The position numbers and the translations under genes were made by a program. Below, one piece after another: positions 12,607 through 34,780 of a stretch of DNA of 42,235 nucleotides (within the stretch, counting starts at the first letter, position 1; every line of letters starts with the position of its first letter). The DNA is from a virus. The stretch lies in IMG/VR virus record IMGVR_UViG_3300031566_000119, positions 1-42,235 of that record; one strand, 5' to 3'. Under the pieces are notes generated by a model. The model was given only the letters and a program-made list of their open reading frames with translations. It was not told the DNA's origin and searched no databases.

Positions 12607-12836
12607 TGACAGTTTACGAATGGGTTAATGAAAATTTAAGCCTTGTTAAGCAACTCGAAAAGGCTGGGGTTATAAAGTATAAAGCCCCGTTATACTATGC
12701 AATTTACAGCCGCTATTCATACTACGTAGCACGGGGTAACTTAAAAACCCCAGCGATAAAACAAGCATGTATGGATTTTAATACATGCGAGCGAACAGGT
12801 TTTACAGCAATCGACGAAATGGAAAAAGAGATATGA
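12606..12836 (+). CDS. Hypothetical small protein after the tape measure
   Basis: 76 residues with a Tyr-rich helical centre (YYAIYSRYSYYVARG). It starts at TAATG overlap with the tape measure and ends at ATGA overlap with the glycosyltransferase, so it is clearly within the operon. No domain recognised. Confidence 0.65.
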   Translation: MTVYEWVNENLSLVKQLEKAGVIKYKAPLYYAIYSRYSYYVARGNLKTPAIKQACMDFNTCERTGFTAIDEMEKEI

Positions 12837-15001
12837 AAATTGGAACAGTAACCCCAACGCTGGGCAATAGACCAAAGTTTTTAAACTTTCTTAAATCGAG
12901 GTTAGAACGGCAAACACGAAAATCCGATTACTCGGTATTTATTGATTATCAAAATACAAGCGGAGCAGTTGACATAAAGGAGCGATTTGTAAAAGGTATT
13001 TCGGAGTGCTTCGCTAATGGCTGCGACTTGGTTTTAATGATTGAGGACGACGACTACTATCCCTTAACTTACATCGAGGAAATGACTGCAGCATGGGCCC
13101 GATTAGGTAAGCCTAATCTGTTCGGGGTTAAAACCACTACCTACTACCATATCGAAAGCAACCGATTCGTTAACATGGCACCAAGCCATTGCTCTGCTTT
13201 TTGCTCGGCACTTGCAAAGGGTGCTAATTATAACGTTGGAGAAAACGGCTCGCCATACTACGACATAGCACTTTGGAAAGCAAACAAAGGGGTACAGGTT
13301 GATATAAATCACCCGCCTTTAGGGATTAAGCACGGACAAGGTGTTTGCGGTGGCGTTGGTCATAATCCTAATGCTAGATTGTACGGTAATAATATTGACA
13401 AAGAACTTCTCCTACTAAAGCAGCGAGTAGATGCCGAAGCTTTTGGTTTTTATAATCAAATAACAAAGTCCGACACTACTGCTATTATAGTTAACTTTGA
13501 AACCCCAGAGCTAACCAAGCGAGCAATTGATAGCCTAATAGGTTTTGAAAGGCTGAAAATAATTGTAGTAGATAACTCAAGCGAAGCAAAACGCTTCAAA
13601 GATGAACGAGTAACTGTATTGGCCCCTAAAGAAAACTTATTCCACGGCAAAGGGTTAGACTATGGAATCACTCATGCTGATACCGAGTATATAATTGTAA
13701 TGGATAGCGATGCTTACGTAAAGGATTTAAACATAATTCGAGAGGCAAAACAAATACTTGAAGGTAATGTTTATGCCGTAGGTTGCCTAGTTGAGAATGT
13801 GCCTAAAACATCATTTTATAAATGCGAGTTTGACTACTTAAAACCTTACTTTGCTGTTTTTAAAAAAGATGTTTGCAAAAGGTTCTCTCCTTTTTTCCAT
13901 CATGGTGCGCCTTGGTGTCAAGCAATGATTGATATTTATGGGATTATGCCAGTAATTGCAATAATGCCTGAAGCAGTTGTGCACGATGAGAAAGGTACAA
14001 TAAAAATAACAGGCAAGGCATGGCAGTTAAATTGGGAAAAACATAAAGTAAAAACTAAAATAACCAAACCTACAGAGATGGAAAAGTTTGAACTAAAAAG
14101 CGGTATTGCTATTCCTAGAGAGTTTGGCGACCCTACCCCGATAACAAAGGATAATATCACCGACGAAATTGCGGTTAAGCTATTAAGGCGTTGGCCTACC
14201 TATCGTAGTTTATTCAACTCGATTCCGAGTTGGTATGATGATCCTAAAAAAGAAAATAAAAAAAAGGTAATTACCGTATTTTGCTTTGTTTACAACGAAC
14301 GGGATTACTTACCTCATGTTTATGAATTTTGGAAGCGACAAGGTATTGGAATGTACGTAATCGATAACATGAGTAACGATGGCACATGGGAATGGCTGCA
14401 AGAAAACAATATCCCTTCACACCGATTCGACACGCAAGATATGTTTCAGTTGGCATGGCTGCAAAAGGAACTGGTAAGAACGCTGCACGTTGTTAAGCCA
14501 GATTGGATAATTTACGGAGCCGCTGATTTGTACTACGCATTCGACGAAAGCATACAAAAGGTTATTGAGAAAGCAGAACTAGGCGGGTTTAACCAAGTGA
14601 GGACCCATTGCTGGTTTACGTGTCCAACAGATAGGAAAAAGAGAAAACTGCCCTTAATTGAAAACTACCCATACTGCCAGCCGTTTTCCGATTTGAACAT
14701 GATTTCAAAGTATGACGAGAAAATAATATTTAACGGCGACCATATAGGGCTGCCAAACGCACGGGCGTTATTTGTTGAAGGAATGATTATCAACACAGGC
14801 AATTGCAAACCGATTGCAATTCAAGAGGAAAAACTTGCACGAAGAAAAAGAGCATGGGAAAGCGGAATGCATAAAGGTTGGGGCGTTCACTATACGGCTC
14901 AAAAAGCAAAAAACTGGGAGCATAAAAAAGAGGATTTACAAGACATTAGGAAAAGTCCATATCATAAATATTACCTAAAAATTAAGGAACTATGCGAATA
15001 G
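12833..15001 (+). CDS. Three-module glycosyltransferase (GT-A folds)
   Basis: 722 residues from ATG 12833 (a longer frame from 12785 would run deep into the upstream gene). Module 1 (about 1-200) has IEDDDYYPLTY, a DxD-like site. Module 2 (about 212-420) is a family-2-like domain with VVDNSSEAKRF and VMDSDAYV. Module 3 (about 478-720) starts ITVFCFVYNERDYLPHVYEF with IDNMSNDGTWEW. It probably adds sugars in sequence to a phage protein or host surface polymer. Three fused catalytic modules in one phage protein is unusual. Confidence 0.85.
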   Translation: MKIGTVTPTLGNRPKFLNFLKSRLERQTRKSDYSVFIDYQNTSGAVDIKERFVKGISECFANGCDLVLMIEDDDYYPLTYIEEMTAAWARLGKPNLFGVKTTTYYHIESNRFVNMAPSHCSAFCSALAKGANYNVGENGSPYYDIALWKANKGVQVDINHPPLGIKHGQGVCGGVGHNPNARLYGNNIDKELLLLKQRVDAEAFGFYNQITKSDTTAIIVNFETPELTKRAIDSLIGFERLKIIVVDNSSEAKRFKDERVTVLAPKENLFHGKGLDYGITHADTEYIIVMDSDAYVKDLNIIREAKQILEGNVYAVGCLVENVPKTSFYKCEFDYLKPYFAVFKKDVCKRFSPFFHHGAPWCQAMIDIYGIMPVIAIMPEAVVHDEKGTIKITGKAWQLNWEKHKVKTKITKPTEMEKFELKSGIAIPREFGDPTPITKDNITDEIAVKLLRRWPTYRSLFNSIPSWYDDPKKENKKKVITVFCFVYNERDYLPHVYEFWKRQGIGMYVIDNMSNDGTWEWLQENNIPSHRFDTQDMFQLAWLQKELVRTLHVVKPDWIIYGAADLYYAFDESIQKVIEKAELGGFNQVRTHCWFTCPTDRKKRKLPLIENYPYCQPFSDLNMISKYDEKIIFNGDHIGLPNARALFVEGMIINTGNCKPIAIQEEKLARRKRAWESGMHKGWGVHYTAQKAKNWEHKKEDLQDIRKSPYHKYYLKIKELCE

Positions 15002-15723
15002 AACAGGTACACTTTGCGCCTAGCGTAAAATTCTTTGAGAGTAAGTTTTTGCAACGCTGGGATATTAGTAGGTATTTTGACCCATTAGCCCCTGCTTTAT
15101 TTGTAGGAGCTTATAATATCGATGATGTAAATATCATCAATAAGCATAAGGGTAAGAAATTAATGAAGGTAACGAGCAAGAGATGGGACTGCTTAGACGA
15201 ACTAAACCCTAAAGACCTTGTTATATTAAGAGGGAATGGGATGCCGTTTGAAATGGATGCCAGTAAGTACAAGATAAAGGCAATGAATATACAGCTAAAG
15301 GATTTTAGCAAGTTCGTGCCAACATTTTTAGGGGATAAAATATATTGTTATCTCGGAAATGATGCTACTAAAAAAAGATACGGGTATGATTTAGCAATTG
15401 AAATACAAAGGCATATAGAGCATGAAATTGTATTCGGGAAAATCGACAAAAGCAAACCTGAAACATTAACTGATGACTATTTAAAAAATACATTTTACGA
15501 AAAGTGCTTCTGCAACCTAGAGTTATCTACTCACGGAGGAAGGGTGAGCAGGGTTGAGATGGGCTACATGGGTCGTAAAACGATAATGCTAGATTCAGTA
15601 GAAAATATGGTTAATGCGATTAAAGTAGAGAGTGAGAAAATAGGCACAATGCAAGCCGCTACAATAGCAAGTGATTACTTTACTAACGACTGGCAAGATG
15701 TTGATTTCTGGAATGAGGTGTAA
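14992..15723 (+). CDS. Putative glycosyltransferase (GT-B-like)
   Basis: 243 residues, overlapping the upstream glycosyltransferase by 10 bp. It has Rossmann-like segments (PALFVGAYNIDDV; KIYCYLGND) and a C-terminal stretch ELSTHGGRVSRVEMGYMGRK, reminiscent of the nucleotide-sugar-binding half of GT-B enzymes. The order of parts and the neighbours support a glycosyl transfer role, but the family is not certain. Confidence 0.55.
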   Translation: MRIEQVHFAPSVKFFESKFLQRWDISRYFDPLAPALFVGAYNIDDVNIINKHKGKKLMKVTSKRWDCLDELNPKDLVILRGNGMPFEMDASKYKIKAMNIQLKDFSKFVPTFLGDKIYCYLGNDATKKRYGYDLAIEIQRHIEHEIVFGKIDKSKPETLTDDYLKNTFYEKCFCNLELSTHGGRVSRVEMGYMGRKTIMLDSVENMVNAIKVESEKIGTMQAATIASDYFTNDWQDVDFWNEV

Positions 15724-16231
15724 GGATAATGCATTAACGCTTTTGGTTAACGATTTGCCTTCGGGTATAACCATGGCCGAGGTTGGGTGCTTCGCAGGTG
15801 AGAGCACTGCTATATTTTTAAACTCGGGTAAGATTAATGAACTGTTTGCAATCGATCCATGGGAAAAGCAATTTGTTGATCCGAACGACGACATGGCTAG
15901 TAGCTTAAATGCCATGTATTCCAAAATAAGATGTGCCGAGCAATCATTTGAGGAACGGGTTAAAGGCAAAAGTGTAATTAAGTTAAAGATGCTATTTAGC
16001 GAAGCAGTTAAGTTATTACCTATGCTCGATTTTATTTACATTGATGCCGATCACCGATATGAAAGCGTAAAGGCAGACATTAAACTTGCACTAACTCGAT
16101 TAAAGCCTAACGGAATAATTGCTGGACATGATTACTACAATCAATTCGAAGGAGTAATTAAAGCCGTTAATGAAACACTTGGAAAGCCAGATAATGTTTA
16201 CGCAGATACAAGTTGGATTAAGCGGCTATGA
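15713..16231 (+). CDS. Class I SAM-dependent methyltransferase (Methyltransf_24-like)
   Basis: 172 residues from ATG 15713, overlapping the previous stop. Motif I is MAEVGCFAGESTA, the acidic end of strand 2 is AIDPWEK, and the post-I region is LDFIYIDADHRYESVKADI followed by NGIIAGHDYY. This pattern is typical of Methyltransf_24/cephalosporin hydroxylase-like enzymes that methylate sugars or small molecules in polysaccharide clusters. Here it probably decorates the glycan made by the neighbouring glycosyltransferases. Confidence 0.8.
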   Translation: MRCKDNALTLLVNDLPSGITMAEVGCFAGESTAIFLNSGKINELFAIDPWEKQFVDPNDDMASSLNAMYSKIRCAEQSFEERVKGKSVIKLKMLFSEAVKLLPMLDFIYIDADHRYESVKADIKLALTRLKPNGIIAGHDYYNQFEGVIKAVNETLGKPDNVYADTSWIKRL

Positions 16232-16731
16232 TAGTAGATGTTTTAGGGCTTGGCGAAAGTTTGGCACTCCACGACGGCAATAATATAACTGTTGGGGTAA
16301 ACGATATATTCAAAGTTAAACCTGTTGATGTGCTGGTTTGCGTTGACTACAAATCATCGTTTACTCCCGAGCGTTTAAAGTGGATTGAAGAGGCGAATGA
16401 TTGCGCTTTTTTTTCACACCTCGACGAATGGAAAAGCAAACCGAACTTTAGTAAGATTGAACTTCAAACATTTTATCCGAAGCAGGTTGCTAACCTCGAC
16501 ATCCAACAACTTCCGAAATCTGTATTCTCTCCTTACGTTGCGGTTGCTTTAGCTTATAAACTATTTACCCCTTCGCTTATTCGGGTGTTTGGAGTTGACA
16601 TGACGAATCACCAGCATTTATCAAAAGAAAAAGAAAGAATACAAAAGGACTGGAAAGCGTTGGTTATTGCGCTTCGCTTGAAGGGTTGTGAAGTTGAGGT
16701 TTTTGGGAGTGGAATGTTAACTGCAAAATAA
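16228..16731 (+). CDS. DUF115-like Rossmann protein of the glycan island
   Basis: 167 residues. The start MIVDVLGLGESLALHDGNN and VGVNDIF...VDVLVCVDY resemble the nucleotide-sugar-linked DUF115/MptE-like fold, where a G-x-G-x-S-L loop follows strand 1. It overlaps the methyltransferase at ATGA and closes the island. Likely role in glycan transfer or recognition, inferred from context. Confidence 0.5.
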   Translation: MIVDVLGLGESLALHDGNNITVGVNDIFKVKPVDVLVCVDYKSSFTPERLKWIEEANDCAFFSHLDEWKSKPNFSKIELQTFYPKQVANLDIQQLPKSVFSPYVAVALAYKLFTPSLIRVFGVDMTNHQHLSKEKERIQKDWKALVIALRLKGCEVEVFGSGMLTAK

Positions 16732-26317: not shown

Positions 26318-26560
26318 ATGCTACTAACCGAACAACAGATTGAAGCAGCCAGAAACGAAATGGCAGCGCAGCTAAAAAAGCGAAACAACTACGTTTTAAA
26401 GCGTACCGAGTTCGAGCTAAAAGAACAGGAAATACTAATCGTAATAACTTACTACTACAATGCCGATGAAAACTATCAATGCGCGAAATATGAGAGCGTG
26501 GATGGCAGCGGAAGGGATGTTGTAGTTGATAATATCGGAAGGTTGAATTTGTATGAATAA
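26318..26560 (+). CDS. Hypothetical small protein, last gene before the cassette array
   Basis: 80 residues, acidic, with a predicted helix (EQQIEAARNEMAAQLKKR) and a beta hairpin. Its TAA stop is inside AATAACGG, the first possible left box of the cassette array. Confidence 0.6.
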   Translation: MLLTEQQIEAARNEMAAQLKKRNNYVLKRTEFELKEQEILIVITYYYNADENYQCAKYESVDGSGRDVVVDNIGRLNLYE

Positions 26561-26740
26561 CGGCTGGAAATATATACTGATTTTTAACCGATTTAAAAGC
26601 ACAAAGCTATGATAACAGAATTATTTGAAAAATACGGAAACCAAAAACCAATGGACTTCGGCGATACGGCGGATTTTTTCCTAGAAGGATACAATTACGT
26701 ATTGAAGCTTTTTAGTGAATTAAATACAACCCGTGTTAGC
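26556..26740 (+). repeat. Possible attC-like site S0 (weak)
   Basis: Left box AATAACGG 26556-26563, right box GTTAGC 26735-26740 preceded by CCGT. The boxes fit the array but I cannot find good internal stem arms, so this is the least certain site. ATG 26609 lies between the boxes. Confidence 0.4.
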
Positions 26741-26860
26741 AAGTGGGGCGGATTGGGGAGTAAGCCTTCGGTTTGCGATGGGGAAAAATGTTTAGACTGC
26801 AAAATTTGGGCAAAGAATAAAAATGGGTGTGCTGATTGTCATCTGTTTAATAGGTGCTAA
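26609..26860 (+). CDS. Cassette protein: helical N-terminus joined to a Cys-rich module
   Basis: 83 residues. Residues 1-42 (MITELFEKYGN... LNTTR) are encoded between the boxes of site S0. The frame then crosses GTTAGC as Val-Ser into a cassette module with seven cysteines (CDGEKCLDCKIW, CADCHLFNRC), probably zinc-binding. The module has no start codon of its own. The stop TAA is part of the next GCTAACG box. Function unknown. Confidence 0.6.
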   Translation: MITELFEKYGNQKPMDFGDTADFFLEGYNYVLKLFSELNTTRVSKWGGLGSKPSVCDGEKCLDCKIWAKNKNGCADCHLFNRC

Positions 26861-26985
26861 CGTTTGAGTATAACCGAAGTTGGCGATTAAAAAGCAATAA
26901 CTTTCAAAATACAGATAAATATGAATAAAAGTACAGAAGTATCGAAAACGCAGAAACCCGCCAATTGCGGCTCTGCTGTGTTAGC
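26856..26985 (+). repeat. attC-like site S1
   Basis: Left box GCTAACG 26856-26862, right box GTTAGC 26980-26985. Internal arms CCGAAGTTGGCG and CGCCAATTGCGG pair imperfectly. The loop holds the start codon of the 26921 gene. Confidence 0.7.
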
Positions 26986-27304
26986 GCCCGTTGATGATAT
27001 TAATACTGAGTGTTACGAGTGCGAGGCTGGAATGTGTAATATATGTCCATATAGAGATAATTGGTATGATTGGCAAAGCGCTAATTATGAGCCGACAGAA
27101 AAAGACAAAGAGGAAATCAAAGAACCTGAAATGGTTAACAAAGATATATTGGTGTGTGATTCAAAGTGTGGGTGGCAACACGATAATCCGAGCGAATGGC
27201 ATCATTACGAAAGAGCCACAAATGGACAATTATGTAAGACGTGTGGAACTTGTTCAGCATTCTGCCATATAGAAACCGTGCGTGTGCCTTTCAATGGGTG
27301 CTAA
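26921..27304 (+). CDS. Cassette protein: site-encoded N-terminus joined to a Cys-rich module
   Basis: 127 residues. The first ~20 (MNKSTEVSKTQKPANCGSA) are encoded by site S1; the frame crosses GTTAGC as Val-Leu-Ala. The module contains CYECEAGMCNICPYRD and a second cluster (CDSKCGW, CKTCGTCSAFC), suggesting two zinc-binding knuckles. It ends with NGC and a TAA supplied by the next GCTAACG box. No family is recognised. Confidence 0.65.
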   Translation: MNKSTEVSKTQKPANCGSAVLAPVDDINTECYECEAGMCNICPYRDNWYDWQSANYEPTEKDKEEIKEPEMVNKDILVCDSKCGWQHDNPSEWHHYERATNGQLCKTCGTCSAFCHIETVRVPFNGC

Positions 27305-27433
27305 CGTTTGGCGGTAAACTCTCGTTGCCGTGCTAAATACGAGGGGTGAATTTTTAAAATACAACAAAATGAAAAACGAAGCAGAAAATATTAATAAACC
27401 ACAAGGCAATGGAGTTTTACCGTGTGTTGTAGG
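27300..27433 (+). repeat. attC-like site S2
   Basis: Left box GCTAACG 27300-27306, right box GTTGTAGG 27426-27433. Arms GGCGGTAAACTC and GAGTTTTACCG pair. The loop holds ATG 27369. Confidence 0.8.
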
Positions 27434-27566
27434 CAGTGCTTTATTGCCCCAATACTGTAAAGACTGTAATAACCACCCTTGCGATAACCACGATAAACAC
27501 ATAAAATGTAAACAATGCTATTTTATAGGCAATCAGCAATCAAACTTTGAACGTAAGTCTGTTTAG
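27369..27566 (+). CDS. Cassette protein: site-encoded N-terminus joined to a zinc-finger-like module
   Basis: 65 residues from ATG 27369; the frame is open to a GTG at 27330, which is less likely. Residues 1-18 come from site S2. The frame crosses the right box as Cys-Val-Val-Gly into a module with CKDCNNHPCDNHDKHIKC and CKQC, a clear Cys/His metal-binding pattern. The module lacks any Met, so it depends on the site for its start. It is followed by site S3. Confidence 0.65.
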   Translation: MKNEAENINKPQGNGVLPCVVGSALLPQYCKDCNNHPCDNHDKHIKCKQCYFIGNQQSNFERKSV

Positions 27567-27571
27567 CATTG

Positions 27572-27778
27572 CCTACAACGGAGGCAAGTGTATTTAGTTT
27601 TTAAACCGACCTAAAAGAAAAGAAGATGAAAACAGCTAAAGAATTTTATAAAGATGAAAAGGGTTATTGTGATGAAGCGATGGAGGGAGTTCCATCCGCA
27701 TTCTTTACTATAATGGAACGATATGCTATTGAATACCATAATAGTGAGGTTAAAAAATTAAATGTACTTGCTGTTAGC
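27572..27778 (+). repeat. attC-like site S3, long coding loop
   Basis: Left box CCTACAACG 27572-27580, right box GTTAGC 27773-27778. Arms GCAAGTGTATTTAG and TTAAATGTACTTGC pair. The loop of about 150 nt encodes the first ~45 residues of the 27626 gene. The left box matches the complement of this cassette's own start (GTTGTAGGCAGTGC versus GCATTGCCTACAAC). Confidence 0.85.
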
Positions 27779-27907
27779 AAGAGCGAGGGCATTGAGCGTG
27801 AGGCTCAGTTAAATTGCGACCACGAATGGGAATATGATACGTTTGACCATTTTGGTTACCCAAAAGAAAAATACTGTATAAAATGTGGAGAAACACAAGC
27901 AACTTAA
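27626..27907 (+). CDS. Cassette protein: site-encoded N-terminal domain joined to a zinc ribbon
   Basis: 93 residues. Residues 1-49 (MKTAKEFYKDEKGY... KKLNVLA) lie in the loop and right arm of site S3. The frame crosses GTTAGC as Val-Ser-Lys. The module has CDHEWEYDTFDHFGYPKEKY and CIKCGETQ: a Cys...His...CxxC zinc ribbon. The module has no internal start codon. Role unknown. Confidence 0.7.
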   Translation: MKTAKEFYKDEKGYCDEAMEGVPSAFFTIMERYAIEYHNSEVKKLNVLAVSKSEGIEREAQLNCDHEWEYDTFDHFGYPKEKYCIKCGETQAT

Positions 27908-27912
27908 TTGAT

Positions 27913-27974
27913 GCTAACGGAGGGCGGTGTATAGCGTTGCCGTCCTTTGGCAATGATATGCAACGCTTGTTAGC
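27913..27974 (+). repeat. attC-like site S4 (short, near-perfect hairpin)
   Basis: Left box GCTAACG 27913-27919, right box GTTAGC 27969-27974. Arms AGCGTTGC 27933-27940 and GCAACGCT 27960-27967 pair exactly, with a GGCAA/TTGCC inner stem. No coding in the loop. Confidence 0.9.
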
Positions 27975-28017
27975 AGTAGGCGTTTAACGAACTAATTGAA
28001 ACTAAAAACTAAATAAA

Positions 28018-28389
28018 ATGAAAATTGAAGACTTCTTTAATATGGAAAGTGAGCTTGGTGACACTATAAAAATGACCAATGAGCAATTTATTTCTAAAAC
28101 AAGAGACTTTCTAACGAAGATAGAAGCCGAATACAGTCACTGCTGGGGAACAAGAAGGATTAGGGATGAAGAATATGAGTTAGCCGATTGTGATAACTGT
28201 AAAGGAGAATGCAACCTGAATGTAAATGGAAAAGAAATAAATTGCGTTGTTGATAATATAGAGGGTGAATGTTTTACCATAGAATTTGATAGCGAACTAT
28301 TTGCCGAAGAAATAGAGAATATTATGTTCCACGATGACAAATTTTCATTTTATGAGTTATTACAGTGTGAAATTTCCAACGAAGCATAA
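28018..28389 (+). CDS. Cassette gene: acidic hypothetical protein
   Basis: 123 residues, strongly acidic, with a central Cys cluster (CDNCKGECNLNV) and a C-terminal helical part. The start lies 44 bp after the right box of S4, so this is a complete cassette gene with its own start. Acidic small phage proteins sometimes mimic DNA; that is only a thought here. Confidence 0.65.
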   Translation: MKIEDFFNMESELGDTIKMTNEQFISKTRDFLTKIEAEYSHCWGTRRIRDEEYELADCDNCKGECNLNVNGKEINCVVDNIEGECFTIEFDSELFAEEIENIMFHDDKFSFYELLQCEISNEA

Positions 28390-28400
28390 TAACGCTTGCT

Positions 28401-28496
28401 GCTAACGGTCGGCGGTATGGTTAGTAAAGCCACCCACTACCGCAACCTATGAAACATAAACTTAATTGGCTTTATTAACTATGACCGCTTGTTAGC
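28401..28496 (+). repeat. attC-like site S5
   Basis: Left box GCTAACG 28401-28407, right box GTTAGC 28491-28496. Arms GCGGTATGGTTAGTAAAGCC and GGCTTTATTAACTATGACC pair imperfectly. Very similar to site S10 (30718-30816). Confidence 0.9.
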
Positions 28497-28536
28497 GGTT
28501 CGTTATTGAGCGTGGGCGGTGCAAAACTTAAATAAA

Positions 28537-28722
28537 ATGGAAGAAATTTTAAAAGACTTACAAAAGTATGAAGAACCTAAGTTTGGCTCTTTTAAATGGT
28601 TATCATGTCAGGCTGGACTACAAAAAGTATCTAAACTTATTGAAGAAGATAAGGACATCAAAGAGGCATTACATAACCTAATTGCAATGAGCGTTCAGAG
28701 TGCGTTGGCAAATGAACGCTAA
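28537..28722 (+). CDS. Cassette gene: helical hypothetical protein ending ALANER
   Basis: 61 residues from ATG 28537 (a GTG at 28519 would extend it by six). All helical. It ends in ALANER with the TAA stop given by CGCTAACG. The 30858 cassette has the same flanks and the same last six residues around a different gene. Confidence 0.6.
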   Translation: MEEILKDLQKYEEPKFGSFKWLSCQAGLQKVSKLIEEDKDIKEALHNLIAMSVQSALANER

Positions 28723-28815
28723 CGAATGGTTGTATGTGTTCGGTTTTGCCACGCACGTACTCCGGTTCAAAGCTATACAGCCAATTGGCAAAACTGACAT
28801 ATACAACGTGTTAGC
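28718..28815 (+). repeat. attC-like site S6
   Basis: Left box GCTAACG 28718-28724, right box GTTAGC 28810-28815. Arms CGGTTTTGCC and GGCAAAACTG, plus GGTTGTATGTG and CATATACAAC, form a long stem. Confidence 0.9.
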
Positions 28816-28853
28816 ACCATGTACGGATTATTAACAACTAAAATATAATTGAA

Positions 28854-29087
28854 ATGAAAAACCAAAAGTATTACCAAAAACAAAGAGAGGCTATTTTAAA
28901 CGATAGCCACAGAAAAGACCTATTTAAGGCATTATTTGACTTATATGCAAATGCAATGCCGATAGCATTAAAAAAAGATGATGGAACAGTTTCGTGTTCT
29001 TATTCTGATGAAGTAGAGGAATTAGCCGACAAAATAAGAGAGCAAATACGATTAAGGGACAATCAGGTTTTTGAAGCGCATTCGTAG
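28854..29087 (+). CDS. Cassette gene: hypothetical helical protein
   Basis: 77 residues, charged and helical, no recognised domain. Complete cassette gene with its own start 38 bp after the right box of S6. Cassette start GTTAGCACC matches its end GGTGCTAAC. Confidence 0.6.
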   Translation: MKNQKYYQKQREAILNDSHRKDLFKALFDLYANAMPIALKKDDGTVSCSYSDEVEELADKIREQIRLRDNQVFEAHS

Positions 29088-29094
29088 TATTGGT

Positions 29095-29186
29095 GCTAAC
29101 GTTGGCGGTAAGAGTAGGCCGCTTTAAGACTGCTCAAATTAAGTACAAAACTATCCGCGGCTTACTTTTACCGCGTGTTATAAAAC
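29095..29186 (+). repeat. attC-like site S7
   Basis: Left box GCTAACG 29095-29101, right box GTTATAAAAC 29177-29186. Arms GGCGGTAAGAGTAGGCCGC and GCGGCTTACTTTTACCGC pair. The right box is the complement of the next left box (GTTTTATAAC), the clearest cassette signature in the array. Confidence 0.9.
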
Positions 29187-29193
29187 GGCCTTT

Positions 29194-29469
29194 ATGATAC
29201 TTGAAAGAAAAGAATGGAAAGAATATCATCCGAACGGGCAAGTTTGGATAACGGGCGAAATCGGAATAATTGCGGATATGTGGAAGCACTTATATAATTA
29301 TAGAACTGGATTTAAAGGATATGAAGATAAAGCAGTTTGCAGGCTTGGAAAATGGACAAAGCAATTCGATAATGGTCAATTAGCTTGGACTATCGAATAT
29401 GATGATTATGGAAATGAAAACGGCAAAAAATATCCATCGTTCAGAAAAGATGGAACAGGGATTTCTTAA
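29194..29469 (+). CDS. Cassette gene: MORN-like repeat protein
   Basis: 91 residues. Two stretches, EYHPNGQVWITGE and KQFDNGQLAWTIEYDDYGN, fit the F/Y-x-x-N-G-Q-x-x-x-x-x-x-Y MORN-type repeat (MORN_2/YwqK-like). These form beta hairpins used for binding. Complete cassette gene whose start is eight bases after the right box of S7. Confidence 0.65.
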   Translation: MILERKEWKEYHPNGQVWITGEIGIIADMWKHLYNYRTGFKGYEDKAVCRLGKWTKQFDNGQLAWTIEYDDYGNENGKKYPSFRKDGTGIS

Positions 29470-29472
29470 GCT

Positions 29473-29613
29473 GTTTTATAACGGCTGGCGGTATGCTTAG
29501 TTGGCGTACCAATTAGTAATAACTTAAATTAAAAGACATGAAAGATTCAAATTTACACCCAGTTTTTAAAGATATACTTGATAGCCAATTAAGTATACAT
29601 AGTGTTGTGGGTA
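29473..29613 (+). repeat. attC-like site S8, coding loop
   Basis: Left box GTTTTATAAC 29473-29482, right box GTTGTGGGTA 29604-29613. Arms GGCGGTATGCTTAGTTGGC and GCCAATTAAGTATACATAG pair. The loop holds ATG 29538. Confidence 0.85.
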
Positions 29614-29846
29614 GTACGGGAAATACACCTGCACACGTATTAGATAATATAAAATTTCAAATAGGCAATGATGAGTTTTTAATTTTCATGATAGCACACA
29701 AAGGCATAAGCACGAAAGGGCAAATATTTTACAACGGCGAACTTGGTTACGTGCTAATTAAAAACGGTCGAACAATGATGAAAGAAGAATTTGATGAAAC
29801 AATGATAAATACTATGCTAAGGTGGAATTTAAAACCAAGGCAGTAG
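29538..29846 (+). CDS. Cassette protein with site-encoded N-terminus
   Basis: 102 residues. The first 22 (MKDSNLHPVFKDILDSQLSI) come from site S8; the frame crosses the right box as Ser-Val-Val-Gly. The module is beta-rich (FQIGNDEFLIFMIAHKG...) without a known family. A Met at 51 is too late to keep the fold, so the site start is probably used. Confidence 0.6.
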   Translation: MKDSNLHPVFKDILDSQLSIHSVVGSTGNTPAHVLDNIKFQIGNDEFLIFMIAHKGISTKGQIFYNGELGYVLIKNGRTMMKEEFDETMINTMLRWNLKPRQ

Positions 29847-29850
29847 TATT

Positions 29851-30700
29851 ACCCACAACGGAGGCGGGTAGGTAAAGTGCTGACTACCGAAACAGAACAT
29901 TTGAAACAACTAATAGTATTAATAATTTTTAGAGAGGGCAATTTTTATGGTTAATTTCTTTAATGTAGATTGTATAGAGTTTATGAAGTCGAAGCCTGAC
30001 AAGTGCTATGACCTTGCTATTGTTGACCCACCGTATGGGATTGACAATAGCAAGACATTATCGCTAAGAGGATATACTGGAAAAGGATGCCCGATGAATA
30101 GACGAATGAGAGAAGCTAATTCGGATTGGGACATAAAACCAACATTGGAATACTTTAACGAACTATTCAGAATTTCTAAAAATCAAATAATATGGGGCGG
30201 AAATTACTTTACCGATTTAATACCCCCAGCAAGGGAGTGGCTTTTGTGGGATAAAGATAAATATTCATTTAAGCATAGCGCATTTGAATTAGCGTGGACT
30301 TCATTCGGGGGGGTGTGTAAAAAAGTAAAAATACAGCACCACGGTTTTTTGGTAAAAGACAAATATACAATACATCCAACACAGAAGCCAGTTATGTTAT
30401 ATCAATTTATTTTAAGGGAATATTGCAAAAATGGAGATAGCATATTAGACACTCACGGAGGGTCAATGAGTATAGCTATTGCATGCGATATTGAGGGATT
30501 TGATTTAGATGTTTGCGAAATTGATAAAAAATACTTTAACGATGCCATTAAGCGATTTAATATTCATAAACTACAAACCGTTCTTAAATTCTAATTGCCG
30601 TAAGGCAAAAGTGGGGGGGGCAAAAAAATATTAATATGACCATACGAATAGACCAATCATTGAAACGAATCAGACAGCATTTTATACACTTGCTGTTAGC
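29851..30700 (+). repeat. attC-like site S9, loop expanded by an adenine methyltransferase gene
   Basis: Left box ACCCACAACG 29851-29860, right box GTTAGC 30695-30700. Arms GCGGGTAGGTAAAGTGCTG and CAGCATTTTATACACTTGC pair over 19 positions, though 800 bp apart. The whole methyltransferase gene lies between them. The left box pairs with this cassette's own start (GTTGTGGGTA). Confidence 0.75.
29947..30594 (+). CDS. DNA methyltransferase (N6-adenine/N4-cytosine type) nested in site S9
   Basis: 215 residues. Catalytic DPPY at 27-30 (AIVDPPYG), a target region in the middle (MRREAN-like and WLLWDKD), and the SAM-binding part at the C-terminus (HPTQKP, then ILDTHGGSMSIAIACDIEG, then DVCEIDKKYF). 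This order fits phage beta-class-like enzymes; the usual F-x-G-x-G is THGGS. It would protect phage DNA from host restriction. It has its own leader (GAGAGGGCAATTTTT before ATG) shared with two other large genes in the array. Confidence 0.85.
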   Translation: MVNFFNVDCIEFMKSKPDKCYDLAIVDPPYGIDNSKTLSLRGYTGKGCPMNRRMREANSDWDIKPTLEYFNELFRISKNQIIWGGNYFTDLIPPAREWLLWDKDKYSFKHSAFELAWTSFGGVCKKVKIQHHGFLVKDKYTIHPTQKPVMLYQFILREYCKNGDSILDTHGGSMSIAIACDIEGFDLDVCEIDKKYFNDAIKRFNIHKLQTVLKF

Positions 30701-30722
30701 AAATCGTTTTAATGTTTGCTAA
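30636..30722 (+). CDS. Doubtful 28-residue ORF in the right half of site S9
   Basis: MTIRIDQSLKRIRQ... VC. It crosses the right box of S9 and the 29-bp empty cassette and stops in the next GCTAAC. The first bases are shared with the region after the cytosine methyltransferase (ATGACCA...GACCAATC), so this may be structural sequence of the site rather than a gene. Confidence 0.25.
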   Translation: MTIRIDQSLKRIRQHFIHLLLANRFNVC

Positions 30723-30723
30723 C
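30695..30723 (+). mobile_element. Empty 29-bp cassette
   Basis: From GTTAGCAAA to TTTGCTAAC with no gene. The two ends are perfect complements of nine bases. It looks like a cassette that has lost, or never had, a gene. Confidence 0.7.
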
Positions 30724-30816
30724 GGCTGGCGGTATGGTTTAGTAAAGGCTGACCACTACCGACCAATCGAAGATAAAAACTTTAAACAGCCTTTATTAAC
30801 TATACCGCTTGTTAGC
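30718..30816 (+). repeat. attC-like site S10
   Basis: Left box GCTAACG 30718-30724, right box GTTAGC 30811-30816. Arms GCGGTATGGTTTAGTAAAGG and CCTTTATTAACTATACCGC pair. Close relative of S5; the loop has GACCAATC, also present in S9 and S11. Confidence 0.9.
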
Positions 30817-30857
30817 GTTTCGTTTTTGAGCGTTGGCGGTGCAAAAAATAAATAAAA

Positions 30858-31067
30858 ATGCAAATACAACTTATTGAATCGAATTACAATCCAATAAATG
30901 AATTTCATACATGGACATTTGTATTTGGATTTTATAATAGCAATAATGAATCAAAATTTATTGTAAAATCAAGTACCCCAATTGGATTTGAAAAAATAAA
31001 AAACAGAATAATAGAATTTGATGAGTTTATAGAATTTTATAAGGGTGCGTTGGCAAATGAACGCTAA
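30858..31067 (+). CDS. Cassette gene: beta-rich hypothetical protein ending ALANER
   Basis: 69 residues, beta-rich N-terminus (WTFVFGFYNSNNESKFIVKS) and a helical end. The flanks (GTTAGCG, then GAGCGTTGGCGGTGCAAAA before it; GCGTTGGCAAATGAACGC at its end) match those of the 28537 cassette, but the gene inside differs. The stop is in the next GCTAACG box. Confidence 0.6.
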   Translation: MQIQLIESNYNPINEFHTWTFVFGFYNSNNESKFIVKSSTPIGFEKIKNRIIEFDEFIEFYKGALANER

Positions 31068-31140
31068 CGTTATCGGGGTGTGAAACGTACCCTTTGAGTA
31101 AAGAGATTAATTGAAACAGTAAACTAAATAATTTTTAAAA

Positions 31141-31221
31141 ATGTGCGAGGGCAAATTTAAACACGGTAGTTTATTTAGCGGAATAGGGTTTGCATATGTC
31201 AATTATATATTATATCTTTGA
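31141..31221 (+). pseudogene. N-terminal stub of a C5-cytosine methyltransferase
   Basis: 26 codons from ATG 31141: MCEGKFKHGSLFSGIGFA, then unrelated residues and TGA. HGSLFSGIGF is the SAM-binding motif I of C5-methyltransferases (F-S-G-x-G). The frame is cut exactly after motif I, where the HNH gene begins, so this is the front of a methyltransferase split by the HNH insertion or an older lost copy. Confidence 0.7.
31189..31220 (+). promoter_or_regulatory. Chimeric consensus promoter of the HNH gene
   Basis: TTTG 31189-31192 lies in the motif I codons (GGG-TTT-GCA) of the methyltransferase stub. A 20-bp spacer and TATCTTTG 31213-31220 come after the break. The match to the Bacteroidota consensus is exact and ATG 31225 is five bases on. 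Confidence 0.65.
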
Positions 31222-31224
31222 GGC

Positions 31225-31662
31225 ATGGGACAAAAAAGAAAACCTGTTTATGACAATGCTTATCAAAGTTACTTAGACGGACTATCGCTTGAACAGGTGG
31301 CGAATGAGATAGGTGTAACAAGGCAATGTGTTTATAAGGCATTTAAAAAAAGAGGGTATATTTTAAGAGGCCCTAACTTTAGACCTTATCAGATTTACGA
31401 CGGTAAAAAGTTTACGCTTAGGAATACGGGATATTATTCTTTGTCAAATGACGATAGATGCTTAATGCATAGGTATGTTTGGGAAAAAGAAAAAGGCATA
31501 ATACCATATGGCTGGGACATTCATCACCTAGATGAAAACAAGGCAAATAATGTAATTGAAAATTTAGAATGCTTGCCAAAAACAGAACATACAAGCAAGT
31601 ATAGTCCTCACAATAACCAGTACACTAAAGGCAGAAAACGTGATACACATAGGACTATTTGA
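31225..31662 (+). CDS. HNH homing-type endonuclease
   Basis: 145 residues. An N-terminal helix-turn-helix (LDGLSLEQVANEIGVTRQCV) and an HNH_3 core: LMHRYVWEKEKG, then WDIHHLDENKANNVIENL, then CLPKTEH. Free-standing HNH enzymes of this type cut phage DNA and spread with their flanks. It sits between a methyltransferase stub and the rest of a methyltransferase. Its last 23 bases also encode the start (GTG 31640) of the following methyltransferase frame. Confidence 0.85.
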   Translation: MGQKRKPVYDNAYQSYLDGLSLEQVANEIGVTRQCVYKAFKKRGYILRGPNFRPYQIYDGKKFTLRNTGYYSLSNDDRCLMHRYVWEKEKGIIPYGWDIHHLDENKANNVIENLECLPKTEHTSKYSPHNNQYTKGRKRDTHRTI

Positions 31663-32851
31663 AGGTATTGGGGGGTTTTCACTAGCAGCCGAATGGGTTG
31701 GGTGGAAAACATTAGTAACATGTGAAATAAACTCTTTCGGGCAAAAAGTACTTAGATACTATTGGCCTAATGCTTACCATCATGGTGATATACATACATT
31801 AACTTATGAGACAATTAACGCTGAACTTACAATACGATTTGGAACCCACTGGAGAAACGATGACATCATCGTTACTGGTGGGTTCCCGTAACTTTGCCAA
31901 CCCTACTCCGTTGCAGGGCAAAGAAAAGGCAAAGCCGACGAACGTCACTTGTGGCCCGAAATGTTGCGAGCAATTCGAGAAATTCAGCCGCGCTACGTCG
32001 TGGGGGAAAATGTTGCTGGGCTTATTAGTTGGAGCGGAGGGCTGGTATTCGACGAGGTGCAAACTGACTTGGAAAATGAAGGGTACGAAGTATGGCCGTT
32101 TATACTTCCAGCTGCAGGTGTCAACGCTCCGCATAGACGAGATAGGGTTTGGTTTATTGCCCACTCCAATGGCGCAAAACAGGGAAACGACATTAGAGCA
32201 AACACAGCAACGGCAGGTGATATACGGAGGGAAAACGAGAGCGATGTACTTGGAGAATTTTGCCGTACTGGGATTACTCCCGACGCCAACAACACAAGAA
32301 GCAGAATCGAGTTGCGAGCTAACGGAATCTGGCAGGAGAAAAACAAAGGACGGGAAGAACTCTCACAGTCTGAATTTGGGGCGAATTGTTGGGATGTTAC
32401 CAACACCGAGAGAAGCAGCAGCGAGGGGCAACACGAGCAACGACAGGAACAAAGGGAATTTGGAAGATGCAATTGCAAAAATGATGCTACCAACCCCGGA
32501 CTGCTCGGACAGGCGAAGTGCGAAAAGCAAACAGCAAGGGTTGAGCAATGTTGTAAAAACGTTACTACCAACACCAACAGCCGACGACAACCCAGCGAAG
32601 AACACGGGGAAACGAAATCAGGATGGGCTACAAAAAAGAGCGTACCAGGCAACTGGCAAAACTTCCCAACTCAACCCCCAATTTGTAGCGGAAATGATGG
32701 GATTTCCGAGCGACTGGACGGAATTACCTTTCCTAAATGGAGAAACGAAAGCATAAAAGCGTATGGTAATGCCATAGTTCCACAGGTTGCTTTACAGATA
32801 TTTAAAGCTATCCAAATTGCCGATAGGCAAAACAGGGAGGGAAATTTTTAA
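31640..32851 (+). pseudogene. C5-cytosine DNA methyltransferase interrupted by an in-frame TAA at its catalytic motif
   Basis: 404 codons from GTG 31640 with one stop at codon 84 (31889-31891). Before it: motif I HIGLFEGIGGFSLAAEW and motif IV start IIVTGGFP. After it the same frame continues LCQPYSVAGQRKG, then VVGENVAG (motif VI), NAPHRRDRVWFIAHS (motif VIII) and GNAIVPQV (motif X). Relative to GGFPCQ, six bases (TAACTT or an equivalent shift) are inserted between Pro and the catalytic Cys. A restart at ATG 31949 would lack motifs I-IV. Most likely inactive, unless readthrough occurs. Confidence 0.8.
31806..32756 (+). CDS. Long open frame overlapping the cytosine methyltransferase, LPTP-repeat protein
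   Basis: 316 residues in the +1 frame relative to the methyltransferase. It contains LLVGSRNFANPTPLQGKEK, GWYSTRCKLTWKMKGTKYGR and five LPTP elements (LLPTPMAQ, LLPTPTTQ, MLPTPREA, MLPTPDCS, LLPTPTAD), and ends LNPQFVAEMMGFPSDWTELP, a pattern I know from proteins annotated in Bacteroidota phages next to such methyltransferases. A 950-bp frame without stops and with a recognised C-terminus suggests dual coding. The six-base insert that stops the methyltransferase leaves this frame open. Confidence 0.55.
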   Translation: MRQLTLNLQYDLEPTGETMTSSLLVGSRNFANPTPLQGKEKAKPTNVTCGPKCCEQFEKFSRATSWGKMLLGLLVGAEGWYSTRCKLTWKMKGTKYGRLYFQLQVSTLRIDEIGFGLLPTPMAQNRETTLEQTQQRQVIYGGKTRAMYLENFAVLGLLPTPTTQEAESSCELTESGRRKTKDGKNSHSLNLGRIVGMLPTPREAAARGNTSNDRNKGNLEDAIAKMMLPTPDCSDRRSAKSKQQGLSNVVKTLLPTPTADDNPAKNTGKRNQDGLQKRAYQATGKTSQLNPQFVAEMMGFPSDWTELPFLNGETKA

Positions 32852-32917
32852 AAATTATGACCAAACCAAACGACCAATCCAATGAAACGAGAACCTAAAG
32901 TATGTTTTACACCCCGT

Positions 32918-32969
32918 GTTAGCATTAGGCTTTTAGCGTTAGCCTGTGGGTGGGAAGCTTGATGCTAAC
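32918..32969 (+). mobile_element. Empty 52-bp cassette
   Basis: From GTTAGCATTAGGCTT to AAGCTTGATGCTAAC with no gene. The ends are near-perfect complements. An inner GTTAGCC at about 32939 may be a remnant box. Confidence 0.65.
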
Positions 32970-33092
32970 GGTAACTTGTATGGCGTTCGTTGCGCCATAA
33001 TTAGAATTACAAACTTTTAAATAACAGATAAGATGACAAAAAAGAACGAAACTTCGAAAACCACAGCGCAATACGCTATACAAAATGTTAGC
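32964..33092 (+). repeat. attC-like site S12, coding loop
   Basis: Left box GCTAACG 32964-32970, right box GTTAGC 33087-33092. Arms TTGTATGGCGT and ACGCTATACAA pair, with GGCG/CGCC around a TTCGTTG loop near the left. The loop holds ATG 33033. Confidence 0.8.
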
Positions 33093-33305
33093 ATTTCGTT
33101 GCCTAATGATATTGATTTGGGTGCGTTGGCTAATCTTTTAAAATATTCAAACAAGTACGAAATAAGCATACAATTCTGGCCTGACCAAATAGCTGTTTAC
33201 ATTGCTAAAGATGGTGTAGATTTAAAAGATTTTGGAGGGGATTTCGAGTTTGCAATTGGTTGCAGCGTGGCATATCTTAACCGCATCACTGGCAATGAAT
33301 GCTAA
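33033..33305 (+). CDS. Cassette protein with site-encoded N-terminus
   Basis: 90 residues. Residues 1-18 (MTKKNETSKTTAQYAIQN) are encoded by site S12; the frame crosses GTTAGC as Val-Ser-Ile-Ser. The module is a small alpha/beta domain (DLGALANLLKYSNKYEISIQ...). It ends NEC with TAA given by the next box. Its own ends are complementary (GTTAGCATTTCGTTGCC versus GGCAATGAATGCTAAC). Function unknown. Confidence 0.65.
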   Translation: MTKKNETSKTTAQYAIQNVSISLPNDIDLGALANLLKYSNKYEISIQFWPDQIAVYIAKDGVDLKDFGGDFEFAIGCSVAYLNRITGNEC

Positions 33306-33584
33306 CGGTCGGCGGTGTAACCAGTTGCGACAATCCAAACATAAACAGAACGAACGAAGTATAAACCTAACAAATACAGTGCGATGGATGATGAATTTAT
33401 AAATGACTTAGCAAGAAAATACGCAAATGTGTGTATTTTCAAAAGCGACTTCCCACACGATTGGGATAGTGTATACGATGGATTTAAGGAAGGGTTTAAA
33501 ACTGCTGTAAGACTAATTGAAACACGAGCGTTGGCAGAAAATACTCCTACGAGCAAAGAGCAATTGGTTGCACCGCCTGTTAGC
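33301..33584 (+). repeat. attC-like site S13, loop encodes most of a protein
   Basis: Left box GCTAACG 33301-33307, right box GTTAGC 33579-33584. Arms GGCGGTGTAACCAGTTGC and GCAATTGGTTGCACCGCC pair at 16 of 18 positions. The loop encodes about the first 58 residues of the 33384 gene. Confidence 0.9.
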
Positions 33585-33671
33585 GTTGCGGTTTGCGACG
33601 TATGCAGAATACCACTAATTGAAGAGCCTGATTCATTTAGCCTTTACTGTCCAAAATGTGGAAAATATTAA
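33384..33671 (+). CDS. Cassette protein: loop-encoded domain joined to a zinc ribbon
   Basis: 95 residues. Residues 1-65 (MDDEFINDLARKY... KEQLVAPP) lie within site S13, the frame crosses GTTAGC as Pro-Val-Ser-Val-Ala, and the module is a 30-residue zinc ribbon (CDVC...YCPKCGKY). The ribbon has no start codon. The cassette start GTTAGCGTTGCGGTTTGC matches its own end GCAAACTGAACGCTAAC. This is the clearest case of a protein assembled across a recombination site. Confidence 0.75.
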   Translation: MDDEFINDLARKYANVCIFKSDFPHDWDSVYDGFKEGFKTAVRLIETRALAENTPTSKEQLVAPPVSVAVCDVCRIPLIEEPDSFSLYCPKCGKY

Positions 33672-33682
33672 GCAAACTGAAC

Positions 33683-33780
33683 GCTAACGGATGGCGGTAT
33701 GGTGTCGGTTTGCCTTGCAGACTTTTTCACCTTACCGCTACCGTAACTGGCAAACTGAACTATACCGCTTGTTGTGTGTC
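33683..33780 (+). repeat. attC-like site S14
   Basis: Left box GCTAACG 33683-33689, right box GTTGTGTGTC 33771-33780. Arms GGCGGTATGGTGTCGGTTTG and CAAACTGAACTATACCGC pair. No coding in the loop. Confidence 0.9.
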
Positions 33781-33855
33781 TGGTGCGGTCAAATTGCAAA
33801 ACAGTTAATTAAATGAACAGTAGTAATAATTTTTATTTTTTTAGGGAGGGAATTT

Positions 33856-34752
33856 ATGATTTCAATTAATAAAAACAGAAACAGAAGTAAATATACATTT
33901 GCAAACATAAACCTTTTAGGGAATTGTAATGCCGATTGCTATTTCTGTTTAGGAAAAGATATAAGCGAACAATTAAAGGGCAAAAACCAATTGAATATTC
34001 ATTTTTCAGAATGGTTAAATTTTGAGTATTTTTTACAGCAATGTAAAAACGAAGGAGTATCAAAATTATATTTAACAGGGCAGACAGCTGATGGTTTGCA
34101 ATACAAATATCTTAATGAAATTATTGATTATTTGCAAAACAATGGCTATACGGTTGGAGTTAGAACAAATGGATATTTGGCAAAACAAAAAATGATTTCA
34201 ATTCAAAAAATGAAAGATGAAATAGGTTATTCGATACATACGCTTATTCCCGAAAAAAACAAAATAATAATGGGTAAAGATTTTTTACCAAATTGGGAAG
34301 AAATAATTCCATTAAGTGGTGAAAATGTGAGAATTTCCATTGTTTTAAATAGATACAATATTGATGAATTTGAAAGCTTAATAAATTTTGCAACTTCTTT
34401 TAATAATGTGAAATACATACAAATTAGAAGGATTTCAACAGACACAAGAATTGAACTATTGCAGGAAGATATTGATTTGTATGAGAAATTTTATGACAAA
34501 TTTTCAAAAGAGAATAAACAAGTAGGTAATTTCTATTTAGCAGAGCAGTATAATTTGAATGGTAAAGAAGTAAATTTTTGGCGAACAGTTGAAACGTCTT
34601 GTAATTCTCTTAATTACTTTACCGATGGTACTTGTAGTAATGAATACTTTATTGTGGAAGGATATTTAAAAAACCTTAACAAGTTTGAAAAACTTGAAGC
34701 GGGTGGGCAAAAAAATAAAAATTATGGTCAAGTTCCTACAAATGTTTATTAA
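33856..34752 (+). CDS. Radical SAM protein, last cassette gene
   Basis: 298 residues. The cluster-binding motif CNADCYFC (Cys24, Cys28, Cys31) is near the N-terminus, followed by LYLTGQTADGLQY and GVRTNGYL, typical of the radical SAM barrel. The C-terminus has further Cys (SCNSLNYF, GTCSNEYF) that may bind a second cluster. Substrate unknown; peptide, nucleotide or RNA modification are all possible. It is much more AT-rich than its neighbours and carries the same GGGAGGGAATTT leader as the methyltransferase, which suggests recent gain. Confidence 0.8.
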   Translation: MISINKNRNRSKYTFANINLLGNCNADCYFCLGKDISEQLKGKNQLNIHFSEWLNFEYFLQQCKNEGVSKLYLTGQTADGLQYKYLNEIIDYLQNNGYTVGVRTNGYLAKQKMISIQKMKDEIGYSIHTLIPEKNKIIMGKDFLPNWEEIIPLSGENVRISIVLNRYNIDEFESLINFATSFNNVKYIQIRRISTDTRIELLQEDIDLYEKFYDKFSKENKQVGNFYLAEQYNLNGKEVNFWRTVETSCNSLNYFTDGTCSNEYFIVEGYLKNLNKFEKLEAGGQKNKNYGQVPTNVY

Positions 34753-34771
34753 ATGCACGAATGTAGCACTT

Positions 34772-34780
34772 GCACACAAC
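34772..34780 (+). repeat. Last left box of the cassette array (half site S15)
   Basis: GCACACAAC pairs with the start of the radical SAM cassette (GTTGTGTGTC, 33771-33780, allowing one G-T). No right half is visible, so the array ends here. Confidence 0.6.

Follow-up and report, generated by a model that had tools for sequence, protein, structure and literature searches.

A Putative Integron-Type Gene Cassette Array on a Bacteroidota Phage

What places long palindromes between the small genes of a phage that carries no integrase? This question is raised by the window, i.e., the whole stretch of DNA analyzed here (42,235 bases), which is of the tailed phage type with terminase, portal, and tape measure genes. 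The phage is assigned to Bacteroidota; its host itself was not identified. Between 26.6 and 34.8 kb, its genes are co-directional with imperfect palindromes between them, and an earlier note based on the DNA alone read this region as an integron-like array. That reading was upheld. With high confidence, we interpret the region as an integron-type gene cassette array; recombination itself was not observed, and the evidence is all comparative. Elsewhere in the window (12785–16731), glycosyltransferase-like and methyltransferase-like genes were seen amid the structural genes when translations were inspected.

Cassette Units and Sites in the Phage

A unit was defined as the stretch from one GTT to a later AAC. 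Fifteen gene-sized units were marked from 26735 to 34780 with all genes on the + strand, in agreement with the previous estimate of about 15 palindromes between small genes of one direction. Two qualifications apply to this count. Beyond 29858 and again beyond 31068, a hairpin lacks its second half and larger genes occupy the place; in addition, no hairpin closes the last unit, which ends at 34780.

The start of each unit had been proposed to be complementary to its own end, as in integron cassettes. The three pairs quoted in support are present, namely GTTATAAAAC at 29177 with GTTTTATAAC ending at 29482, GTTGTGGGTA at 29604 with TACCCACAAC ending at 29857–29858, and GTTGTAGGCAGTGC at 27426 with GCATTGCCTACAAC ending at 27579. 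A permutation test over the 15 units supported the rule (z = 9.0, P < 1e-5). Unit starts scored a mean of 10.5 against their own ends, compared with 5.3 against other ends and 5.3 against the end that they abut in the linear array, and own-end pairing was still strong past the first 6–7 bases (z = 9.0 and 8.3). The inverted ends extend over 10–18 bp per unit, and their sequence is unit-specific except for GTT/AAC and position 11. T occupies position 11 of the end arm in 15/15 units, and the start arm carries G at position 11 or 12, also in 15/15. Joining a unit into a circle stabilized the hairpin relative to the linear form at 11/11 sites (P = 0.0005), and folding of the + strand surpassed that of the − strand at 11/11 sites (P = 0.0005). 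Own-end pairing beyond 7 bp was considered as a property unique to these sites; this was ruled out, as a Vibrio integron control has it too.

Covariance model R1, trained mostly on loci outside the window with one window site (S5) included, identified 10 sites in the window at E < 1e-4; every one of them is on the + strand and within the array. A strict scan with few mismatches and no bulges overlooked most sites. The attC-like site S1 spans 26849–26993, with R'' ending at 26861 and R' starting at 26980 (54.7 bits). Listing R'' end and R' start in the same order, S2 (27293–27439; 27305/27426; 67.6 bits) includes, as read from its sequence, the region in which the next gene has its start codon and is followed downstream by S4 (27906–27982; 27918/27969; 29.3 bits) and by the training set member S5 (28394–28504; 28406/28491; 79.4 bits). 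The hairpin of S6 (28711–28823; 28723/28810; 47.7 bits) and the leader following it also occur in LR756500.1. S7 (29088–29190; 29100/29177; 58.7 bits), S8 (29470–29617; 29482/29604; 39.0 bits), S10 (30711–30824; 30723/30811; 67.5 bits), and S12 (32957–33100; 32969/33087; 62.4 bits) are of the same kind, and S14 (33676–33784; 33688/33771; 44.3 bits) shares its hairpin and leader with three IMG/VR contigs. Two + strand sites are degenerate and rest on own-end pairing, S3 (27565–27786; 27579/27773) on this alone, with the next gene starting inside at 27626, and S13 (33301–33584; 33306/33579), where it starts inside at 33384.

Two further + strand sites are interrupted. S9 (29847–29963; 13.4 bits, E 0.45) retains R'' and L'' without R' and is followed by an N6/N4 DNA methylase gene within the array (29947–30594, + strand, PF01555). 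Of S11, the R'' half alone was recognized in the sequence (31063–31068); between it and an R' at 32918 lie genes for an HNH endonuclease (PF13392) and a C5-methylase (PF00145). A stop splits this C5-cytosine methylase (31640–32851) into frames 31640–31891 and 31949–32851, and the HNH endonuclease gene is located just upstream; a broken gene, an invasion, or an assembly error could be responsible. The last unit (33771–34780) carries a radical SAM gene (33856–34752, + strand, PF04055) and closes with a terminal AAC boundary (34770–34780, + strand) that pairs with the start at 33771, with no hairpin after this end of the array. The remaining cargo comprises many small unknowns. A leader-like motif, AGGGAGGG or GAGAGGG followed by AATTT and ATG, was observed at 29920–29947, 32830–32858, and 33830–33856; it is common to three larger genes or gene ends, near the places of interrupted hairpins.

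The earlier claim that the genome lacks an integron integrase or other site-specific recombinase was borne out at the level of domain searches, in which neither PF00589 (tyrosine recombinase) nor PF00239 (resolvase) matched anywhere in the phage record. No attI was recognized at the array end in the window.

Site Architecture and the Point of Exchange

The sites follow the consensus ATKNNNN[AC]TAAC-G-N4-L''...L'-N2-GTTA[TG]NNNNNNG on the window strand. The layout AAC-N5-L''...L'-N2-GTT, which comprises R and L boxes, an unpaired spacer, and a variable terminal part, is present in the window and in about 220 sites elsewhere, with spacers fixed at 5 and 2 nt. Stem pairs 1–7 are 96–100% Watson–Crick despite variation in the letters, and G.T occupies pair 8 in 69%; the mismatches tolerated on the + strand are G.T. 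Bulges are exclusive to the 3' arm, the side of the canonical extrahelical bases (16 vs 0). Among 70 sites with (5,2) spacers, 16 have a bulge, always in the canonical L'' arm; the rest mostly have G.T at position 8, and in the majority of sites no clear extrahelical base is present. Rfam gave no match to the hairpins.

The R box of canonical attC sites has the consensus RYYYAAC/GTTRRRY. The sites here do not meet GTTRRRY; they read GTTA[TG]NN with T at position 5 in 47%, so the looser boxes described earlier are confirmed. In canonical attC, C precedes GTT in R', and the extrahelical bases sit on the R''-L'' arm (PMC2727003). The sites described here fit this arrangement only on the reverse strand, which identifies the window + strand as the canonical bottom strand.

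Cassettes shared between loci break at AAC|G in 44 pairs, not all of which are independent. Where a hairpin is part of the shared stretch, the similarity begins at AAC and continues into the next gene, or it stops at the AAC that precedes the next hairpin. As exceptions, about five clear starts at GTT were found, and in two pairs the similarity takes in the following hairpin and ends at GTT. The earlier note suggested exchange at G/TT; on the + strand, most breaks instead fall at AAC|G (44 pairs against a handful at GTT), which corresponds to canonical C|GTT on the other strand. Since AAC|G is the reverse complement of canonical C|GTT, the breakpoints likewise designate the window + strand as the recombinogenic bottom strand. 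As predicted, the Vibrio integron control, whose sites read in the opposite direction, showed C|GTT and AAC|A. Exchange mainly at AAC|G implies that the mobile unit is a hairpin together with the gene after it, with genes inverted relative to canonical attC. A unit consisting of a gene plus the following hairpin, exchanged at GTT, was dropped on the breakpoints of shared cassettes. Units of phages recur in differing contexts, with 85–95% identity; a body-level comparison on chained sites yielded too few pairs.

Relatives, Chromosomal Integrases, and Gene Orientation

The same site type was found in dozens of phage contigs. The S6 hairpin shows 82% identity to one locus of LR756500.1, a 462-kb uncultured phage with a similar array, and the similarity starts at TAACG. 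No tyrosine recombinase was found in LR756500.1; in one place (394241–406395, reverse complement), more than a dozen sites were seen. No near relative of the window phage was available for a comparison of gain and loss, and megablast of the array in phages returned LR756500.1 only. In IMG/VR, no match was obtained with a pattern that included both hairpin arms or with capsid and Rad52-like queries. Other pattern scans detected further arrays in IMG/VR and in eight genomes, all labelled Bacteroidota. Among 296 evenly sampled Bacteroidota genomes, R1 sites at E ≤ 1e-6 occurred in 122; the false-positive rate on other phyla is unmeasured. On a phage-like contig of a Chitinophagales MAG (L203, G006:C166:12001-32000), six DNA methylase genes were noted in cassettes, three C5 and three N6/N4.

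A search of Bacteroidota for such sites beside tyrosine recombinases, as proposed in the earlier note, was productive: arrays adjoin an IntI/XerA-like tyrosine recombinase gene. Relatives of one array-linked recombinase were sought in 22 array-bearing genomes, with the clade cut at ≥170 bits. Of the 17 full-length recombinases of this clade, 15 adjoin an array, always at the same end, which is the 3' end in the reading of the window and the attI end after polarity correction. The integrase gene mostly reads toward the array. The distance from the last cassette to this gene is 81–104 bp in ten arrays and 44–45 bp in two. In most arrays the junction is AAC followed by non-hairpin DNA, with AAC|T.. 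near the integrase. In three related integrons (L181, L188, and L212), identity across AAC| drops from 95% on the side of the attI-like sequence and integrase to background on the side of the cassettes, a switch indicating that exchange occurred exactly at that point. The array-linked enzymes scored 196–233 bits against TIGR02249, below the cut-off of 265, and near the cut-off against NF040815 (XerA/integron integrase), the best family for most of them. The IntI-specific insertion is absent from them. The previous inference that exchange would use a host enzyme is strengthened by this matching chromosomal family beside such arrays, and the integrase is probably supplied by the host. A tyrosine recombinase encoded on one phage contig (L070) belongs to a more distant type. 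Separately, a second, more distant tyrosine recombinase of about 300 aa was observed within arrays or directly after a site in L176, L140, and L141, as if cassette-borne.

Gene orientation distinguishes the phage and chromosomal arrays. The hairpin lies upstream of the gene in 75/75 decidable phage cassettes (a further 4 were ambiguous, and 2 lacked a frame), and in 26 phage cassettes the ATG of the gene is inside the hairpin. Chromosomal loci, sampled irrespective of phages, have the opposite orientation at about 56:1. Three genome contigs of phage-type orientation were examined, and all carry phage genes, namely terminase, DNA polymerase with ribonucleotide reductase, and transposing-phage genes, respectively. 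On one contig (L205, G007:C102), Mu-like transposing phage genes and phage-type cassettes were observed together. By these opposite orientations, the cassettes of phages and those of chromosomes appear to form two pools, the phage cassettes being a sub-pool with gene orientation inverted relative to attC.

Explanations, Known Systems, and Implications

The own-end rule, the conserved hairpin of fixed geometry, the chromosomal arrays ending at an attI-like junction by an integrase, and the breaks at AAC|G together point to an integron-type array. In the mechanism we propose, a hairpin site and its downstream gene would form the mobile unit. Upon excision as a circle, the two ends of the unit would meet and form a long imperfect stem, the folded attC. 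During infection, a host integrase of the array-linked family most likely acts on the folded + strand of the phage cassettes, which would thereby be inserted, deleted, and shuffled; this action of the host enzyme is inferred. The hairpin, 5' of the gene, often provides the start codon, and a secondary site was probably the entry point of the first cassettes. Counter-evidence consists of the atypical R box, the few extrahelical bases, integrases without the IntI insertion, and the few breaks at GTT.

The alternative that survives best, unlikely as it is, holds that the array is a dead relic of a chromosomal integron in which recombination has ceased. A phage without an integrase, with two interrupted and two degenerate sites, would suit such a relic. 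However, phage genes are all opposite in orientation to chromosomal cassettes, so the array was not simply copied from a chromosome; the site structure is also kept, and the occurrence of phage units in different contexts at 85–95% identity disagrees with a relic. Far less probable are MITE-like elements with terminal inverted repeats, mobilized by a transposase in trans. Each body does have its own inverted ends of 10–18 bp, and some shared bodies, a minority, come without a hairpin in common, but these ends vary by unit except at GTT/AAC and position 11, the structured hairpin between units moves with the next gene, and chromosomal arrays adjoin an integrase. Terminators or RNA processing hairpins without any DNA recombination are likewise very unlikely. 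They would agree with palindromes between co-directional genes and with a + strand stem that tolerates G.T as RNA would, but can hardly be reconciled with start codons inside hairpins, units that pair over the length of whole genes with their own end rather than with the neighbor, unit exchange precisely at AAC|G, or an attI-like junction kept at a near-constant distance from an integrase; an Rfam match was also lacking.

Compared with known systems, the integron-type array of the window is closest in setting to the phage CALINs (clusters of attC lacking integron-integrases) described by Qi et al. 2023 (PMC9892861), where 5/6 tested phage attC sites were recombined by IntI1. They share attC cassettes in phages without an integrase and methyltransferase cargo (P12002L CALIN). 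They differ in having few attC per described phage vs about 14 here and another attC type, and the genes here are inverted. R1 found zero sites in the CALIN phages P12002L, TJE1, and MW202573. The statement in the earlier note that attC sites have been reported in some phages agrees with this published work, and these three phages do not have the present site type. Sedentary chromosomal integrons of the Vibrio type are alike in integrase, attI or attI-like junction, same-direction array, own-end rule, and C|GTT exchange. The chromosomal arrays here differ from them in boxes and spacers and in an integrase that is without the IntI insertion and is mostly oriented toward the array; R1 gave one match on the Vibrio integron, which was not significant. 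For Bacteroidetes proper, the IntegronFinder 2.0 survey of the same phylum lists no more than In0 elements and a single complete integron, that of Salinibacter ruber (PMC9024848), compared with sites in 122/296 sampled genomes here. XerA and the "integron-like" subgroup of simple tyrosine recombinases (NF040815; PMC8138268) are the best family match of most array-linked enzymes, and the papers searched contained no prior tie between them and such cassette arrays. In the open-access literature searched, which excluded preprints, the attC type, the Bacteroidota arrays, and the orientation rule were undescribed. The relatives of the phage sites apparently constitute a large, undescribed integron family in Bacteroidota chromosomes.

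With moderate confidence, we further propose that Bacteroidota possess a large integron system of their own, with a distinct attC type and an integrase without the IntI insertion, which existing models have missed. Phages would carry an inverted cassette pool in which the hairpin serves as 5' leader or start, shuffled by the host integrase. The reversal of orientation between phage and chromosome is a new and unexplained rule. If this proposal is true, integrons would be common rather than rare in Bacteroidota, which are dominant in gut, soil, and water, and their integrases would act without an insertion thought essential for attC recognition, offering a testable case. Phages would circulate cassettes for Bacteroidota integrons, providing a route by which small genes, DNA methylases among them, could be exchanged rapidly between phage and host.
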